Assembly: GCF_026015985.1 (NCBI RefSeq)
Contig: NZ_CP110389.1
Span: 248,001 to 312,000, forward strand
From: Rhodopseudomonas sp. P2A-2r
GTDB taxonomy: Bacteria; Pseudomonadota; Alphaproteobacteria; Rhizobiales; Xanthobacteraceae
DNA length: 64,000 nucleotides
Direction: 5' to 3'
Positions 18,086 to 26,421 of the stretch are shown one piece after another. Numbering within the stretch: position 1 is the first letter of the stretch; the number at the start of each line of letters is the position of its first letter. Below the pieces are notes generated by a model that saw only the letters and a list, made by a program, of their open reading frames with translations, was not told where the DNA came from and did not search any database. The translations under genes were made by a program, and so were the position numbers.

Positions 18086-19054
18086 ATGACGCTCGAATTG
18101 TCGCGACGCTCGCTGCTCGCCCTCGGTGCCGGACTGACCACCAGCATGGTCGGCGGAGGCGCATTGGCGAAGGCGCCCAAGCTCGGAACGCAATCGCCCT
18201 ACTTCCATCGCTTCATGCTCGGCAGCGCCGAGGTCTCGGTGGTCTCAGACGGACCTTTGCCGCTCGGCGATCCCTCCGGCACCTTCATCGGCGTGCCCCA
18301 GGAGGAGGTGAAGAAGATGCTCACCGACAACTTCCTCGATCCCGGCAACGTGGTGCTCGAGCAGAACATTCCGATCGTCAACATGGACGACCGGCTGATC
18401 ATGTTCGACACCGGCATGGGCACGTCGAAATTATTCGGGCCGACTACCGGGCGTTTGATGAAGAGTATCGGCGAGGCCGGTCTCAAGCCGGAGGACATCG
18501 ACGCCATCGTGTGCTCGCACGCCCACGTCGATCATATCGGCGGCATCGTCGACGCCAACGACAAGCCGCTGTTTCCCAATGCGCAGGTCTATATCAGCGA
18601 GGAGGACCTCAAGTTCTGGACCGACGAGGGCAAGCTCGGCTCGCCGCTCAAGGACTTCATCGTCCACGCGCGAAAGAACCTGATGCCGGTGCGTGAACGC
18701 CTGGTGTTCTTCAAGGACGGCCAGGAATTCCTCCCCGGCGTCACCGCGCTGGCAGCGCCCGGCCACACCTTCGGCCACCACATGTTCATGATCCAGTCGA
18801 ACGGCCAATCCTTCGCCTTCCTCGGCGACCTCACCCATCACGCGATCCTGCTGATGGAGAAGCCGCGGATGGAGTTCTCCTACGATTCCGATCCGAAGAT
18901 GGCGGCGGCGACGCGGGTCAAGATGCTCGACATGCTCGCGGCCAACAAGATCGCGGTGATGTCCTATCACTTCGCCTGGCCCGGCTTTGGCCATGTGGTG
19001 AAGAATGGCGACGGCTTCCACTACATCGCCGAGCCGATGAACATGAGCCTTTGA
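18086..19054 (+). CDS. Exported metallo-beta-lactamase-fold hydrolase
   Basis: 322 residues. The N-terminus LELSRRSLLALGAGLTTSMVG is a Tat-type signal (RR then hydrophobic run). The metal-binding motif HxHxDH is in CSHAHVDHIGG near residue 150, with further His in APGHTFGHHMF and LGDLTHHAIL. Resembles periplasmic lactonase/quorum-quenching-like or generic MBL hydrolases; substrate unknown. AGGGAGATTCCG upstream of the ATG gives a good ribosome site. First gene of the accessory zone after gshB. Confidence 0.88.
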   Translation: MTLELSRRSLLALGAGLTTSMVGGGALAKAPKLGTQSPYFHRFMLGSAEVSVVSDGPLPLGDPSGTFIGVPQEEVKKMLTDNFLDPGNVVLEQNIPIVNMDDRLIMFDTGMGTSKLFGPTTGRLMKSIGEAGLKPEDIDAIVCSHAHVDHIGGIVDANDKPLFPNAQVYISEEDLKFWTDEGKLGSPLKDFIVHARKNLMPVRERLVFFKDGQEFLPGVTALAAPGHTFGHHMFMIQSNGQSFAFLGDLTHHAILLMEKPRMEFSYDSDPKMAAATRVKMLDMLAANKIAVMSYHFAWPGFGHVVKNGDGFHYIAEPMNMSL

Positions 19055-19175
19055 CCCCGCCGAAAATCGTTACGGCAAACCCGTGACAGCGTGCGGCAGA
19101 CCTGAGGCAGGCCTGCCGCCACGCGCCGCCGGTCATCAGCAGCGCTGCAATGCACCCGCCCCCGTCAAACCGCAT

Positions 19176-19189
19176 TTGATTCACATCAA
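19176..19189. promoter_or_regulatory. FNR/FixK-type binding site upstream of bchE'
   Basis: TTGATTCACATCAA is a perfect match to the FNR/FixK consensus TTGAT-N4-ATCAA. It lies about 35 bp before the first bchE-homologous codon. FNR/FixK control fits an oxygen-sensitive radical SAM cyclase used at low oxygen. Confidence 0.7.
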
Positions 19190-19207
19190 AGCGTCAAGAC
19201 AACCTGA

Positions 19208-19225
19208 TGTCATGCTTCCTTTACA
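19208..19225. promoter_or_regulatory. PpsR/CrtJ-like site (TGT-N12-ACA)
   Basis: TGT at 19208-19210 and ACA at 19223-19225 are separated by exactly 12 nt, the consensus spacing of PpsR/CrtJ, the repressor of photosynthesis genes. This short pattern occurs by chance fairly often, and the right half overlaps the start of bchE homology, so the site is tentative. Confidence 0.35.
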
Positions 19226-20575
19226 TTTGAGATCGCCAAGGAGATTCATCCCAAGGCGCTGACCGTGCTGGGCGGCATCCATGCCACCTTCATGTATCAG
19301 CAGGTGCTGACGGAGGCGCCGTGGATCGATGCGATCGTGCGCGGCGAGGGCGAGGAGATCTTCGTCAACCTGCTGCGGGCGCTCGAAGACGGGCGCTGGC
19401 CCGGGCAGCGCCACGACATCAAAGCCATCGCCTTCCGCGGCGGCGAGACGGTGGTCGCCACCGCGGCGGCGCCGACGGTGAAGAACCTCGACGCCATCAC
19501 GCCGGACTGGGGCGTGCTGGAGTGGAGCAAGTACATCTACATTCCCATGGGCAAGCGCGTCGCCATTCCCAACATGGCGCGCGGCTGTCCCTTCACCTGC
19601 AGCTTCTGCTCGCAGTGGAAGTTCTGGCGCGACTACCGGATTCGCGATCCCAAGCGCGTGGTCGACGAGATCGAGGGTCTGATCCGCGACCACGACATCG
19701 GCTTCTTCATCCTCGCCGACGAGGAGCCGACCATCAACAAGAAGAAGTTCGTGGCGTTCTGCGAGGAGTTGATCCGCCGCGACCTCGGGATCCTGTGGGG
19801 CATCAACACCCGCGTCACCGATATCCTGCGCGACGAGGCGCTGCTGCCGCTGTGCCGCAAGGCCGGCCTGATCCACGTCTCGCTCGGCACCGAGGCGGCG
19901 GCGCAGCTCAAGCTCGACCGCTTCAACAAGGAGACCACCGTCGCGCAGAACAAGAAGGCGATCCAGCTGCTGCGCGACGCCGGCATCGTGGTCGAGGCGC
20001 AGTTCATCGTCGGGCTGGAGAACGAGACCCGCGAGACTCTGGAAGAGACCTACCGGATGGCGCGGGACTGGAAGCCCGATCTCGCCAACTGGGCGATGTA
20101 CACGCCATGGCCGTTCTCCGACCTCTTCCGCGAGCTCGGCGACAAGGTCGAGGTGTTCGACTACGAGAAGTGCAATTTCGTTTCGCCGATCATGAAGCCT
20201 GATGCCATGGACCGCGCCGAGCTGCTCGACCGGGTGATGCACAACTACCGGCGCTTCTACATGAACAAGGCGCTGTTCTCCTATCCCTGGGCCGGCACCG
20301 GCGAACGGCGCCGCTATCTGCTCGGCTGCCTGAAAGCGTTTCTCAAATCCGGCTTCGAGCGCAAGTTCTACGATCTCGGCCGCGTCAACGACTGGGGGCC
20401 GCAATCCAAGGACAAGGTGAAGTTCGCCCTCGACGCGACGCACAAGCGCGCCGACATCAGCGCGGTGGAATGGAAGACCAGCCATAACCGCAAGGTCAGC
20501 GGCCCGCAGCAGGCCGAGCTGATGGGCTGCGGCGGCCATGACCATGCCGAACCGGCGACTCCTGCCGTGCATTGA
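19211..20575 (+). pseudogene. bchE: Mg-protoporphyrin IX monomethyl ester oxidative cyclase BchE, 5' truncated
   Basis: Radical SAM/B12 enzyme that closes ring E of bacteriochlorophyll without oxygen. Homology begins at [29 protein letters not shown]; the N-terminal 90-110 residues (first part of the cobalamin-binding domain) are missing. A stop (19205-19207) precedes the frame and only a GTG at 19265 could start it. The rest is intact: GEGEEIF, the radical SAM cysteines in [17 protein letters not shown], and an open frame to the end (436 codons from the GTG). bchJ follows after 20 nt. Probably non-functional unless the missing part is an assembly error. Confidence 0.85.
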
Positions 20576-20595
20576 TACGATGAGGGACGGTGTGA

Positions 20596-21210
20596 ATGTC
20601 CGACGCTGTTCACGCTACGCATGACGCATCCTTCGGCCGCATCGGCCCCAATGCGATCACCCGCGTCGCCGAGGCGCTGGGCGCGATCGACGGCGCCGGC
20701 GCCGTCCGTCGCGTGTTCGAGACGGCGGGGCTGACGGACTATCTCGCCGCCGCTCCCGCGGACATGGTGGACGAACGGCATGTGACGCGGCTGCATTTGG
20801 CGCTGCGCGGCGATCTCGGAGGCGCGCGCGCCCGCACGGTCGGCTGGATTGCCGGCCAGCGCACCGCCGACTATCTGCTCGCGCACCGGATTCCGCAGCT
20901 AGCGCAGAGGTTGCTGCGCGCCCTGCCGGCGCCGGCCGCGAGCCGGCTGCTCGCCAGGGCCATCGCCGGCAACGCCTGGACCTTCGCCGGCACCGGCAGC
21001 TTCGCCGCACGCCATGGCCGCCCGACCACCTTCACCATCGCCAACTGCCCGATCTGCCGCGGACAAGACGCAACGAGCCCGTACTGCGATTTCTATGCGG
21101 CGACGTTCGAGCGGCTCTACGGGCGACTGGTCCACGCGGGCGCCCGCGTGGTGGAGACCGACTGCCAGGCCATGGGCGCCAGGGCCTGCGTGTTTACGAT
21201 CGCGTGGTAG
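20596..21210 (+). CDS. bchJ: BchJ, V4R-domain bacteriochlorophyll synthesis protein
   Basis: 204 residues. The C-terminal half has the V4R (4-vinyl reductase) fold with TFTIANCPICRGQ and the cysteine-containing VVETDCQAMGARACVF ending. BchJ was once called 4-vinyl protochlorophyllide reductase but is now seen as an accessory factor. It is 20 nt downstream of the broken bchE and probably shares its promoter. Apparently full length. It ends 33 bp from the convergent diguanylate cyclase. Confidence 0.85.
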   Translation: MSDAVHATHDASFGRIGPNAITRVAEALGAIDGAGAVRRVFETAGLTDYLAAAPADMVDERHVTRLHLALRGDLGGARARTVGWIAGQRTADYLLAHRIPQLAQRLLRALPAPAASRLLARAIAGNAWTFAGTGSFAARHGRPTTFTIANCPICRGQDATSPYCDFYAATFERLYGRLVHAGARVVETDCQAMGARACVFTIAW

Positions 21211-21243
21211 CAAATACCGCGATCGCAGCGATGACGCACGGCG

Positions 21244-22287
21244 TCAGGCTGCGGCCGACGAGCCGCTTGGGCGGCGGCCCGGACCGGGCTTGTGAATCCG
21301 GAACGTGCTGCGGCCGGCGGCCTTCGCCGCATACAGCGCGGCGTCCGCCATCATGAACAGTTGCGACGGCGCGCAGCCATCGACCAGCGCGATGCCCACC
21401 GATGCGCCGAGCTGCAGCTCGCGGCCGTTGAAGACGACGGGGCGGCGCATCGCCTCGACGATGGCGCGCGCGGTTTCCGAAATCTCCGCGAACTGCAGAT
21501 GCGGAGCCAGCATCACCGCGAACTCGTCGCCGCCGATCCGCGCCACCAGTTCGGCACCGGGACAGGCATTGCCGATGCGCAGCGCCGCCTCGCGCAGGCA
21601 TTCGTCGCCGGCGGCATGACCATAGCTGTCATTGACCGACTTGAACTCGTCGAGGTCGATCAGCAGCAGCGCGCCGAACGGCCTCTCGGCGGCGCTCAGT
21701 TCCGACAGGCGCGATTGAAACTGGCTGCGGTTGGCCAGCCCGGTCATGACGTCGAACTCGGCAAGGTAGCGATTGCGGTCGGCCAGAATCTTTTCTTCGG
21801 TGATGTCCTGCTTCATGCCGAAAATGCGCACCGCGACGTCGTCGACGCATTCCACCGTGGCGGTGATGCGGATCCAGCGCCGGTTGCCCTTCGGGGTGAC
21901 GATCTCGGTCTCCAGCGTGAAGCCGGTGCGGTCGGCGATCGCCTTGCTGCGCGCCGCGGTGAGCGCCCGCAGCGATTCCTCCGGATAACATTTGAGCGTG
22001 ACCGCGCGGTCCAGCGGCGTGCCGCGCTCCTGGTCGAACAGGTCGTAGACGACATCTGTCCAAGCCAGCGATTCATCGGCGAGGTTGCACTCCCACACAC
22101 CAATGCGCGCCGCCGCCGACGAGCGATTGAAGATCTTCTGGCTGTGCGCGAGCGAGGCAGCCTGCGCGCGGATCAGTTCCGCCTGCGCCGCGACGCGCGC
22201 CTTCAACAATTCGATCAATTCCGCCTGGTCAGACAAGACCGACTGCACGGGGAAGGGATCGGACATACTGCCGCTCGATTTGGTCAT
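21244..22287 (-). CDS. PAS-GGDEF diguanylate cyclase
   Basis: Makes the second messenger cyclic di-GMP. About 347 residues: a helical N-terminus (QAELIELLKARVAAQAELIRAQ), a PAS domain (about 55-165, ARIGVWECNLADESL...FGMKQDITEEK) and a GGDEF domain with VARIGGDEFAVML. An upstream RxxD inhibitory site is not obvious. No membrane segment, so a cytoplasmic sensor. Convergent with bchJ. Confidence 0.92.
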   Translation of the reverse strand: MTKSSGSMSDPFPVQSVLSDQAELIELLKARVAAQAELIRAQAASLAHSQKIFNRSSAAARIGVWECNLADESLAWTDVVYDLFDQERGTPLDRAVTLKCYPEESLRALTAARSKAIADRTGFTLETEIVTPKGNRRWIRITATVECVDDVAVRIFGMKQDITEEKILADRNRYLAEFDVMTGLANRSQFQSRLSELSAAERPFGALLLIDLDEFKSVNDSYGHAAGDECLREAALRIGNACPGAELVARIGGDEFAVMLAPHLQFAEISETARAIVEAMRRPVVFNGRELQLGASVGIALVDGCAPSQLFMMADAALYAAKAAGRSTFRIHKPGPGRRPSGSSAAA

Positions 22288-22389
22288 GGATGAATTCGGC
22301 AAAGCTCGCACGTCAGCGTTTAAGATTTTCTATAGGTGAGGGTAACCCGCGGCACTGTCGCAGTGCGTCGCACCGGGTTCCATGTGGAA

Positions 22390-23212: not shown

Positions 23213-23314
23213 ATGCGCCTCGCGCTACCTTCGGTTGCGAACGAGGGAATCGAGGCGCGCGCCGTCGATGTCCAGGTGCAGGTCGTGCCCGGCCCGCCGA
23301 ATTTCCTGATGGTG
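23213..23314 (+). pseudogene. comM: comM/yifB 5' remnant (Mg-chelatase-like ATPase)
   Basis: 34 codons that read like the ComM N-terminus: SVANEGIEARAVDVQVQV then VPGPPNFLMV. Intact ComM continues with GLPDKAV; here the homology stops and IS630 sequence begins after a short gap. ComM is a helicase for branch migration in natural transformation. The matching 3' end lies at 29065-29190. Confidence 0.75.
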
Positions 23315-23377
23315 TGTACTATTAATATGGCTTTCTGCCTTCGTGCACTTTGCGGCGCAAACAACACCCCGGCTAGC

Positions 23378-24171
23378 CCTGCAGCCCGCCCGATGGGTGG
23401 CAACCGGCCCTATGCATTGGCCGGCCAGCGGGACTGGCTGCTGAAGCGCCTCGCCGATCAGCCTGATGTGACGTTGCGGGCGCTGGTAGCGGAGCTTGCG
23501 GCGCGCGGCATCAAGATCAGCTACTACGCGATGTGGCACTTCTTCGAGCATGAAGGCATCAGCTTCAAAAAAGCCTTCACGCCAGCGAACAGGATCGGCC
23601 CGACGTGGCCAGGCGGCGGGCACGATGGAAGCGCCTGCAACACAAGTTCGATCCAGGACGGCTCGTCTTCATCGATGAGACCTGGGCCAAGACCAACATG
23701 ACACGTACTCATGGCCGGGCGCGGCGGGGCGAACGGCTGGTGGCGAAGGTGCCGCACGGTCATTGGCAGACGCTGACCTTCCTCGCAGCGCTGCGCGCCG
23801 ACCGCATCGACGCTCCCTGCGTGATCGACGGGCCGATCAATGGCGACAGTTTCCTTGCCTATGTTGAGCAAATGCTGGTTCCGACCTTGAAGCCGGGCGA
23901 CATCGTCGTCATCGACAACCTCGGCAGCCACAAGGGAAAGGCCGTCCGTCGCGCAATCCGCGCGGCCGGCGCAAAGCTGTTCTTCCTGCCGCCTTACAGC
24001 CCCGACCTCAATCCGATCGAGCAGATGTTTGCCAAGCTTAAAACCCTCCTGCGCAAGGCCGCAGAACGAACCGTCGAAGCCACATGGCGAAGAATCGGAA
24101 CGCTCCTCAACGCCTTCAGCCCTCAAGAATGCGCCAACTACCTCGTCAACTCAGGATACGCTTCAAAGTGA
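23378..24171 (+). pseudogene. IS630 transposase (N-terminus missing; -1 frameshift design)
   Basis: Frame 1 reads RPMGGNRPYALAGQRDWLLK to EGISFKKAF; frame 2 continues ASEQDRPDVARRRARWK. The A6G slippery run at 23567-23573 joins them by a -1 shift to give SFKKSLHASEQDRPDV, the normal IS630 sequence, so this frameshift is programmed rather than damage. The DDE residues are present: VFIDETWAKTN, VIDNLGSHKG and SPDLNPIEQ. The DNA-binding N-terminus is gone, so the copy is probably inactive. Confidence 0.8.
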
Positions 24172-24183: not shown

Positions 24184-26144
24184 CTAGAACGCAGCCCGGA
24201 TCCCACTGCTGACCGCAAAGTCGTTGCCGCCGGCGCGTGCGAAGGTCGACGTGATAGTGAGTGTTGCGTTGATATTCCCGGCAATTCCAGCGCCGATGCC
24301 GGCGGCGACCCTGCCGTAGGTGCGGTCCTGCGCGGAGACCGGCGTCAGGATCGGGAGCAGCGGTGCGGTTACCAGCGTGGTGGTCACGTTGCGGCCAGAG
24401 CCTGCGAAATCCTGCTCGGCAGTGAGGTTGATGAAGGGGCTGTACAGCACCATTCCCGTGACGAATGGCAATCGCAATTGAAGCCCGGCGTTGGCGGTCA
24501 AGGCGTTGATCGTTTGCCTGTCGACCATCATGGTCAGCAGGACGTCCCCGCTCTCGGTGTAGCCGCCGATGACCCCGTGGGTATAACTGAATCCGGCGAT
24601 CGGCCCGACGCGTACCGCTCCCGCGTTGACCAGGTAGCCGGCCCTGGCAGCCGTCGTGAAGGTGTCGGCGCTGGTGCTGCCGTGGATCACGTCGATCACG
24701 CCCTGGCGATCCAGCGCAAAGTCGTGGCGGCCATAGGCGGCGAGCGCGTCGACGAACCAGTTGGCATCGGTAAACGAGCCGTAGCCGGCAAACTGATAGG
24801 ATTTCACGTGATCATGCGCGTTCTGAACGCCGAGAGTGACATCGGGTTCGGAGTAGCCCAGCGCAAATCCCAGCCGCCATCTGGAATCATAGCGGTACTC
24901 GATTCCGAAGGTGCCGCCGGGGGCGTGATAATCATAGCCAGCATTGAAGAACTGCCTGTCGAGGCTGCCGCTGGCGTAGCTGAAGTCGCTGTAAACCGAC
25001 CATCTGTCTTCCGGCTTGAGCGGAGATGGAGCCTTGGTCGGGCCGGCATAGGCCATCGCCATCGCGTTGCCGATTCCGAACGGCTGGGAGGTGCGCGAGG
25101 CGTCGAGCCGGCCAAACACCGAACCGGCGAAGCCAGCGGCAAGGCTGGCGGTGATGGCGCCCTGCGGCACTACGGTGGTCGGCGCGTCGATCTGGTTCGC
25201 CATGTAGGTCGCGATCAGCGCCATCGCGGCGCCGGTGGGATGGACCGAGTTTTGATAGAAGCAGCCTGCGAAATTCACGGTGACGCCGGCAGGCGGGGTA
25301 CTCCCGGCTGTGCCGGCCCCGCTTCGCAAGCGGTGGCGCTCGTGAAGCCGTACATCCCCGGATTGTTGGCGACGCGCTCCTGCAGGATGCCGAAATTGAA
25401 CAGAAAGATGCGCACACCGGATTGCGCCAGCGGCGCCAGCAATTGCTGGGTCTGCTGGTAATAGGTGTTCGCCCAGGCGTCGCGCAACGGGTCGGTGAGA
25501 AAGGTGGAGCCGGGCGGGGCGGGAAACCATTTCGAACTGCCGGTGCTGAGCCAGGCGATGTTGCGGGTGCCCTGCGCCGCCATCTGTTGCACGCCGGCGG
25601 CCGCCAACCCCGCCGAAGTGGTCGCGCCCAAGACGATCAGCTGCCGATCGGCCGCGGCCACGCCAGTGAGGGTGATGGCCGACAGATCGTTGCCGCCGAT
25701 CGACAGCGCGATCAGGTCGCTGCTGGCGTAGTGCAGGCCGGCCGACTGGACGAGTTCGTAGCTGAAGCCGAACCCGGGGTTGAGAGGGGCGAGCGTGTTG
25801 GTATTGTCAGTTCGCGCGCCGCCGATCGCATAATTGGTCATTCCCGGCAGGCCATAGATCGACTGCAGCGACTGAACGAAGGTGGTGCTGCCGGTGAACG
25901 TGCAATTGGGGGAGTAGACACAGTTCAGGTGTCCAAGCTGGAACGCACCGCCCGGCGCAGCACCGGTATCGGCATAACTGTCGCCGAAGCCGTATATCGC
26001 GGTGAATTGCGCCTTGGCCGGAAGGATTGTGGCTCCCAGTATCACTACGGAGACGATCGCCGCCGCCGCGGTGCCGCCAAGCGCGGTTCGCCCTCGATTC
26101 AACGGCAGCGAAATCGACAGCATCCGCGAAAGGTCGTGGCTCAT
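24184..26144 (-). pseudogene. GDSL/SGNH esterase autotransporter, one frameshift
   Basis: The N-terminal part (start 26144, MSHDLSRML) has a signal peptide ending LPAKAQF, then GFGDSYADTG (nucleophile Ser block), IGGARTDN and LSIGGNDLS (blocks III-type). The catalytic His block appears after the frameshift as FYQNSVHPTGAAMA, followed by a roughly 280-residue beta-barrel ending GIRAAF with the terminal Phe of outer-membrane proteins. The frames join if the G4 run (C4 at 25317-25320 on the plus strand) is restored to G5, giving ATACEAGAGTAGSTPPAG. About 652 residues when repaired; EstA-type surface esterase. Confidence 0.8.
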
Positions 26145-26421
26145 CCCAATTCCTCCCTGAGACTGGTCCGTCGGACACAGTCGCGACTTAGTTCTCAAGG
26201 CGGCTAAGTGATTCGCACTGGCAACGCTTTGTTCCAGGTCAAGTCTGATTCAACTTTCGGTGGTGGGGTGCGACCACGCGCGGCACACAGGCCAATCAAC
26301 GAGATACTCAAGCCCGATCTTGCCAACGCCAGGCTTGCTCGGACCTATCAGGTAGCGGTTTGGGTTATTTTCGATCAAATCGGGCTTTCAGCGCCATGTC
26401 CGGTTTCCCACCGATAGCCTG

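Follow-up and report, generated by a model that had tools for sequence, protein, structure and literature searches.

A beheaded bchE before a full-length bchJ: a probable relic of lost phototrophy in Rhodopseudomonas sp. P2A-2r

Introduction

What is a bacteriochlorophyll gene pair doing behind a low-oxygen promoter in the genome of Rhodopseudomonas sp. P2A-2r, when the first of its two genes has lost its beginning? The pair occupies positions 19176-21210 of the window, by which we mean the whole 64,000-nucleotide stretch of DNA that was analysed (contig NZ_CP110389.1, 248,001 to 312,000). A first-pass annotation, made from the letters of the window, described an intact bchJ and a bchE lacking its N-terminal 90-110 residues, with an FNR/FixK box and a PpsR-like site just upstream. 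It suggested that a deletion had joined the promoter to the body of bchE, and that the pair was either a remnant in a lineage no longer phototrophic or a second decaying copy in a phototroph. It also proposed searching the genome for a second bchE and for photosynthesis cluster genes, and aligning the gene with intact bchE; both analyses are reported here. We conclude that the locus is probably a decaying relic of an anoxygenic phototrophy since lost from the lineage.

Results

The gene pair and its promoter lie between a metallo-hydrolase gene and a diguanylate cyclase gene, arranged as follows.

18086..19054, + strand: hydrolase with a metallo-beta-lactamase fold, the left neighbour (domain matches; a conserved gene, present in 11 of the 18 genus members when this genome is counted)
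19055..21243, no strand: segment holding bchE and bchJ; in 8 congeners the two flanking genes occur without it
19176..19189, + strand: FNR/FixK-type box TTGATTCACATCAA, assigned to the bchE promoter (exact consensus match; position common to 10 of 10 relatives)
19208..19225, + strand: TGT-N12-ACA (PpsR-like) element, the last kept part of the promoter (position shared by relatives)
19226..19228, + strand: deletion junction (intact bchE has about 18 nt of leader here, including the ribosome site, and then 84 codons)
19229..20575, + strand: bchE stump, anaerobic Mg-protoporphyrin IX monomethyl ester cyclase (TIGR02026; open to its stop)
20596..21210, + strand: bchJ, full length, with a V4R domain (TIGR02019 and PF02830)
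21244..22311, - strand: GGDEF diguanylate cyclase, the right neighbour (profile and domain matches, congener comparison)

The bchE gene is truncated and carries signs of decay

A profile search identifies the frame at 19229-20575 as BchE, with a TIGR02026 score of 645 bits (curated cut-off 481); the profiles of other families score far under their own cut-offs. The match spans profile positions 82-491 of 497. The radical SAM domain is whole (PF04055, positions 3-165 of 166), its CX3CX2C motif reading CPFTCSFC by eye. The B12-binding domain (PF02310) is represented by positions 73-120 of 121, compared with 5-120 in an intact relative, and the full N-terminal cobalamin-binding domain needed for a working BchE is absent. 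BchE requires cobalamin, according to the available part of PMC7242693. Among the best 120 of 3450 protein relatives, 119 are 527-571 residues long and one has 472. The TIGR02026 score and these full-length relatives rule out a shorter radical SAM family, other than BchE, that would normally start at this point.

Alignment with nine intact genes (L023-L026, L028, L029, L031, L032 and L042) places the break after 84 codons and a leader of about 18 nt. In all nine, 84 codons precede the residue that matches the first of the stump, the E of EIAKE at codon 19229; the truncation described earlier thus stands, at 84 residues rather than 90-110. The promoter is kept as far as the ACA at 19225. In L023 the same ACA is followed by 18 nt containing AGGAGG and then by the ATG, so that the missing stretch amounts to roughly 270 bp (18 + 252). 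A TGA lies in frame at 19205-19207 (read by eye), beyond which the frame is open to the stop codon at 20573-20575. There is no in-frame ATG at the join, and the first usual start codon is the GTG at 19265, preceded by a weak AAGG (by eye). The stump therefore shows both truncation relative to its intact relatives and loss of its start signals, and with no ribosome site and most of the cobalamin domain gone it would presumably yield no working BchE. The protein itself does not appear among the best 120 of the 3450 relatives, although the BchJ of this genome does appear among the BchJ relatives; perhaps gene callers did not predict the stump.

To these losses the remainder of the gene adds substitutions at conserved positions. 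Of 257 columns conserved at 97% or more among 60 relatives, seven are broken in the stump (G66A, Y209C, Y315C, T319S, Y388D, F401L and R405H, numbered from codon 19229). Each relative, tested against the remaining ones, breaks at most six, with a median of one. A stricter column set (120 relatives, 99%) gives seven of 219 for the stump and a maximum of five for the relatives. Compared with P0121, the stump gives mixed results in relative-rate tests (chi-square 5.14, 3.85, 1.20 and 3.00 for the four outgroups), and pairwise dN/dS values for bchE are low, at 0.06-0.20.

The low dN/dS, the frame free of stops, the whole radical SAM domain and the FNR box still in place would also fit a short protein that still works, namely a 436-residue radical SAM enzyme translated from the GTG at 19265 and catalyzing another reaction at low oxygen. 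We regard this as improbable: such a protein would start inside the cobalamin domain, it breaks more conserved columns than any of the 60 relatives, and no family of short forms occurs among the best 120 of the 3450 relatives.

The bchE promoter is retained in front of the deletion

The sequence TTGAT-N4-ATCAA has a single exact match in the 64-kb window and none in 100 shuffles. All 10 relatives compared have such a box, which agrees with the consensus at 9 or 10 of its 10 bases and starts 66-74 bp upstream of the bchE start codon. The FNR/FixK box of the first-pass annotation is borne out, and by this comparison it is bchE's own promoter element. Thirty-two base pairs after the start of the box begins the TGT-N12-ACA element, which we take to be a putative PpsR binding site. 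The motif occurs four times in the window against 5.2 expected and is thus, by itself, no better than chance. Its position, however, matches a CGT-N12-ACA that seven of the 10 relatives have 32 to 34 bp after the start of the box (two others have CGA-N12-ACA and one has CGT-N12-ACG), and the motif here is probably what is left of that element. The site described earlier is present, then, with its position rather than its motif to recommend it. Because the bchE promoters of the relatives share the same layout, the proposed joining of a promoter to the body of the gene also holds. In Rhodobacter sphaeroides, bchE is activated by FnrL and CrpK through a site with TCAA at -57, as described in the accessible part of PMC4263372.

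No photosynthesis cluster was found in the genome

The genome consists of one contig of 6,737,367 bp and is 99.83% complete. Profile searches of it find a single BchE, the second match being another radical SAM protein at 26 bits, and no pufM. The BchX matches are two nifH genes (sequences read by eye) and one weak ATPase-type match, while those to BchH fall under the cut-off and are probably CobN, a name we assigned by inference. We also searched the genus with 52 kb of DNA from the cluster region of Bradyrhizobium BTAi1 (L118:6500-20000, L119:1600-20000 and L120; cluster genes named by eye), scoring the best 16 candidates per genome, a depth at which badly decayed pieces could be missed. In this genome, bchM, bchD and bchI have no match among these candidates. 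Among the listed matches (five of six in one search) there is none to acsF, puh, bchB, bchN, bchF, bchP or bchG, nor, for the cluster DNA, to puf, bchZ, bchC or crt. The listed matches are bchE, bchJ, two hemA copies, a LysR gene and a heme-oxygenase piece, together with nifH-like and CobN-like sequences, short repeat pieces and flanking DNA beyond the cluster. The substrate of BchE depends on magnesium chelatase and BchM, and this substrate pathway (BchH, BchI, BchD and BchM) was not found in the genome.

In a survey that took in 50 of at least 80 bchE-bearing loci, pufM scores over its cut-off in 46 of the 50 genomes; one has a weaker match and three have none, and all four are metagenome-assembled genomes (MAGs). 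For a one-contig genome to carry an orphan bchE is therefore unusual. Since the single contig yielded one bchE but, in these searches, no pufM or further cluster genes, the idea of a second decaying copy in a phototroph is not supported; neither a reaction-centre gene nor a bacteriochlorophyll gene beyond this pair was found.

The two nifH genes lie about 31 kb apart (L020 and L021, at 1.281 and 1.312 Mb) and encode the same protein as far as printed (by eye); one of them is followed by a nifD-like gene. The CobN-like gene (L115-L117, 4859227-4862465) matches BchH in two frames of 1197 and 269 aa, with a possible frameshift near its end.

Congeners have an empty site, and two of them have a cluster

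Our genus set comprises 18 genomes including this one, the only one of the 18 in which BchE is present (profile search, E up to 1e-100) and in which the bchJ-bchE part of the BTAi1 DNA finds a match. Ten congener loci contain the metallo-hydrolase gene. In eight of these the site is empty, the diguanylate cyclase gene lying 31-102 bp away, versus 2195 bp here; in the other two, comM is next in one and the contig ends too early in the other. None of the ten contains bchE or bchJ. The named relatives of the metallo-hydrolase include Tardiphaga sp. 1201_B9_N1_1 (83%) and other Tardiphaga, and also Rhodopseudomonas, Afipia and Bradyrhizobium; these names tentatively suggest Tardiphaga as the genus. 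A plasmid origin was considered and found no support: six plasmid records match at 60-80% identity, none of them covering 80% of the query.

At 23213-24171 of the window, a comM-like gene (named by eye) breaks off after its first 28 residues, which are 86% identical to congener G005, and continues into a DDE_3 transposase; the remainder of comM was not found in the window. By eye, a pair of overlapping frames on the minus strand (24184-26198) resembles a single esterase-autotransporter gene with a frameshift.

Two congeneric MAGs, G006 and G015, contain a photosynthesis cluster, whose assignment to the genus rests on binning. In both, a LysR gene directly adjoins hemA, without the bchJ-bchE that BTAi1 has at this point, and no bchEJ was found elsewhere in either genome. 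The available text of PMC10569730 gives bchEJ as part of PGC1 and describes the Tardiphaga cluster as resembling PGC2, which is without it. Since the MAG clusters lack bchEJ, it may or may not have descended together with the cluster. The ends of both clusters lie at queA-tgt and cbbR (named by eye). In the present genome, hemF-, tspO- and hmuO-like genes adjoin cbbR at about 1.605 Mb (L161:5446-8621; by eye), and apart from these housekeeping-type matches no cluster remnant was found in the cbbR region.

A second gene of photosynthesis type is also beheaded

One of the two hemA copies, at G000:C1:2945188-2946126 (L138:9189-10127), matches TIGR01821 from position 94 to 401 of 402 and is without its first ~93 residues, counted in profile positions. 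Its identity to cluster hemA genes is 91% for G015, 90% for G006 and 80% for BTAi1, compared with 60% to the genome's own housekeeping hemA. In a hemA tree of 29 rows, the relic, the cluster hemA of G006 and G015, and a piece from congener G011 form one clade with support of 100/99; short, duplicate or edge-cut loci were left out of both this tree and the column test. The relic breaks two of 100 conserved columns, as many as or fewer than three of 27 rows, and has a dN/dS of 0.053 against G015. The G011 piece (L141:9348-9809) encodes 157 residues from the C-terminal end of a hemA of photosynthesis type. It comes from a genome without pufM and suggests a possible further, independent loss of phototrophy.

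Because the hemA relic groups with the cluster hemA of its congeners, phototrophy was probably present in this lineage and then lost, and the relic is our strongest evidence for a former possession of cluster genes. It likewise strengthens the first of the two possibilities raised at the outset, that of a remnant left after the loss of phototrophy. The same grouping supports the MAG clusters as the genus's own. At the junction of the relic (L138:8987-10127), the other strand carries the C-terminal end of a sigma-factor-like gene that is also cut (profile positions 138-179 of 180; 41 bits, under its cut-off). This double cut led us to consider the scar of a one-step cluster excision, a reading we rejected: outside hemA, L138 is unmatched to the cluster contigs of G006 and G015.

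A beheaded hemA also bears on whether the missing 270 bp of bchE might be present in the organism and have been lost in assembly. That would be a very remote prospect, given the single contig at 99.83% completeness, the decay seen independently elsewhere in bchE and the loss of the same end from a second gene.

A further alternative separates the two relics: bchEJ and its promoter may have come by horizontal transfer from another phototroph, inserted between the hydrolase and diguanylate cyclase genes of a lineage that had no need of them, and decayed at that site, the hemA relic having a history of its own. The empty site in eight of the 10 congener loci and the presence of bchE in one of 18 genomes fit this account. 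So do the two congeneric clusters without bchEJ, as also in print for Tardiphaga (PMC10569730, available part), and the weak placement of BchE and BchJ among metagenomic sequences. The base composition of the segment, however, resembles that of its neighbours (GC3 of 0.92 and 0.87 for the pair, 0.83-0.90 around it), elsewhere bchEJ commonly lies outside the cluster (PMC12654162 and PMC6052148, in the parts available), and one lost phototrophy is the simpler account of two photosynthesis-type relics in one genome. We consider transfer a possibility of some weight, though not a likely one.

bchJ is complete

Downstream of the stump, bchJ is full length, as the first-pass annotation had it: it scores 171 bits with TIGR02019 (cut-off 74.3), covers profile positions 1-187 of 188, and contains the V4R domain PF02830. 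One of 74 conserved columns is broken, the same number as in the median relative. We think that bchJ is probably on the same path of decay and has not been hit so far. It is also conceivable, but unlikely, that bchJ outlived photosynthesis by another role, as a V4R protein that binds or carries porphyrins in heme or cobalamin metabolism at low oxygen. The FNR-type promoter would then still drive bchJ, and the bchE stump would be little more than a leader. This reading fits the normal conserved columns of bchJ next to the abnormal ones of the adjoining bchE, and also the suggestion, in the part of PMC7242693 available, that BchJ may be a chaperone and not a reductase.

Discussion

Our preferred reading, a relic of lost phototrophy, starts from four observations: bchE is truncated, its promoter layout is inherited, the pathway is missing, and a second gene of photosynthesis type is beheaded. 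The bacteriochlorophyll pathway would have been present in an ancestor, where FNR controlled a bchE-bchJ operon located apart from the main photosynthesis cluster. Loss of that cluster would have left hemA debris behind and the bchEJ operon without its substrate pathway. A deletion of about 270 bp may then have taken out the bchE leader, the start codon and the first 84 codons, joining the promoter to the body of the gene. What remains would be a low-oxygen promoter followed by an untranslated or badly translated stump and then by bchJ. Both the order of cluster loss and 5' deletion and the derivation of bchEJ and hemA from the same ancestral phototrophy are what we infer. Because the stump is fully open, its dN/dS is low and the hemA relic is little decayed, both cuts appear to be recent or some constraint to be left; the stump, accordingly, is young or still under some constraint.

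Gene decay after the loss of a pathway is of a kind already known, and the value of this case is that a single complete genome preserves two beheaded genes together with an inherited promoter. Whether the scattered phototrophy of the Nitrobacteraceae reflects repeated gain or repeated loss has been argued mainly from trees, and for Bradyrhizobium the accessible part of PMC10569730 favours gain by transfer. Scars such as the two beheaded genes described here, and the third hemA piece in G011, are direct evidence of past possession, and similar ones can be sought in other non-phototrophic Nitrobacteraceae. The locus also suggests how an operon outside the main cluster may outlast the loss of that cluster and then decay with its promoter still there, and it offers a natural setting in which to ask what BchJ does alone.

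The comparison with known systems begins close to home. Tardiphaga vice304 and vice352 (PMC7701988) probably belong to the same genus, of which some members only have the cluster. In these strains, for which loss of the cluster is described, it is absent as a block of 45.7 kb, and the part of that paper available mentions neither bchE nor gene stumps, whereas here two cut genes remain. In the literature, searched by title and start of abstract with partly noisy results, we found no cut bchE or hemA relic in the genus.

Chromosomal bchEJ apart from the cluster is described for Rb. litoralis and Dinoroseobacter shibae in the available parts of PMC12654162 and PMC6052148; in both the rest of the pathway is present, unlike in this genome. 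An operon so placed could survive the loss of the cluster. Another bchEJ apart from reaction-centre genes occurs in the Bradyrhizobium MAG RBC079, where a ubiA-like gene, bchE-bchJ and a hemN-like gene follow one another (L023:5361-10015; names by eye) and pufM lies on another contig.

A close match in arrangement is found in phototrophic Bradyrhizobium. The strains BTAi1, STM 3809 and SSBR45G (cluster type 1) have the same bchE-bchJ gene order, a BchE that is 86-88% identical over the kept part, and an FNR box at the same distance. Their bchE, however, is intact and belongs to a complete cluster, with a LysR gene on one side of the pair and hemA on the other, whereas in Rhodopseudomonas sp. 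P2A-2r bchE is cut and stands alone among unrelated neighbours.
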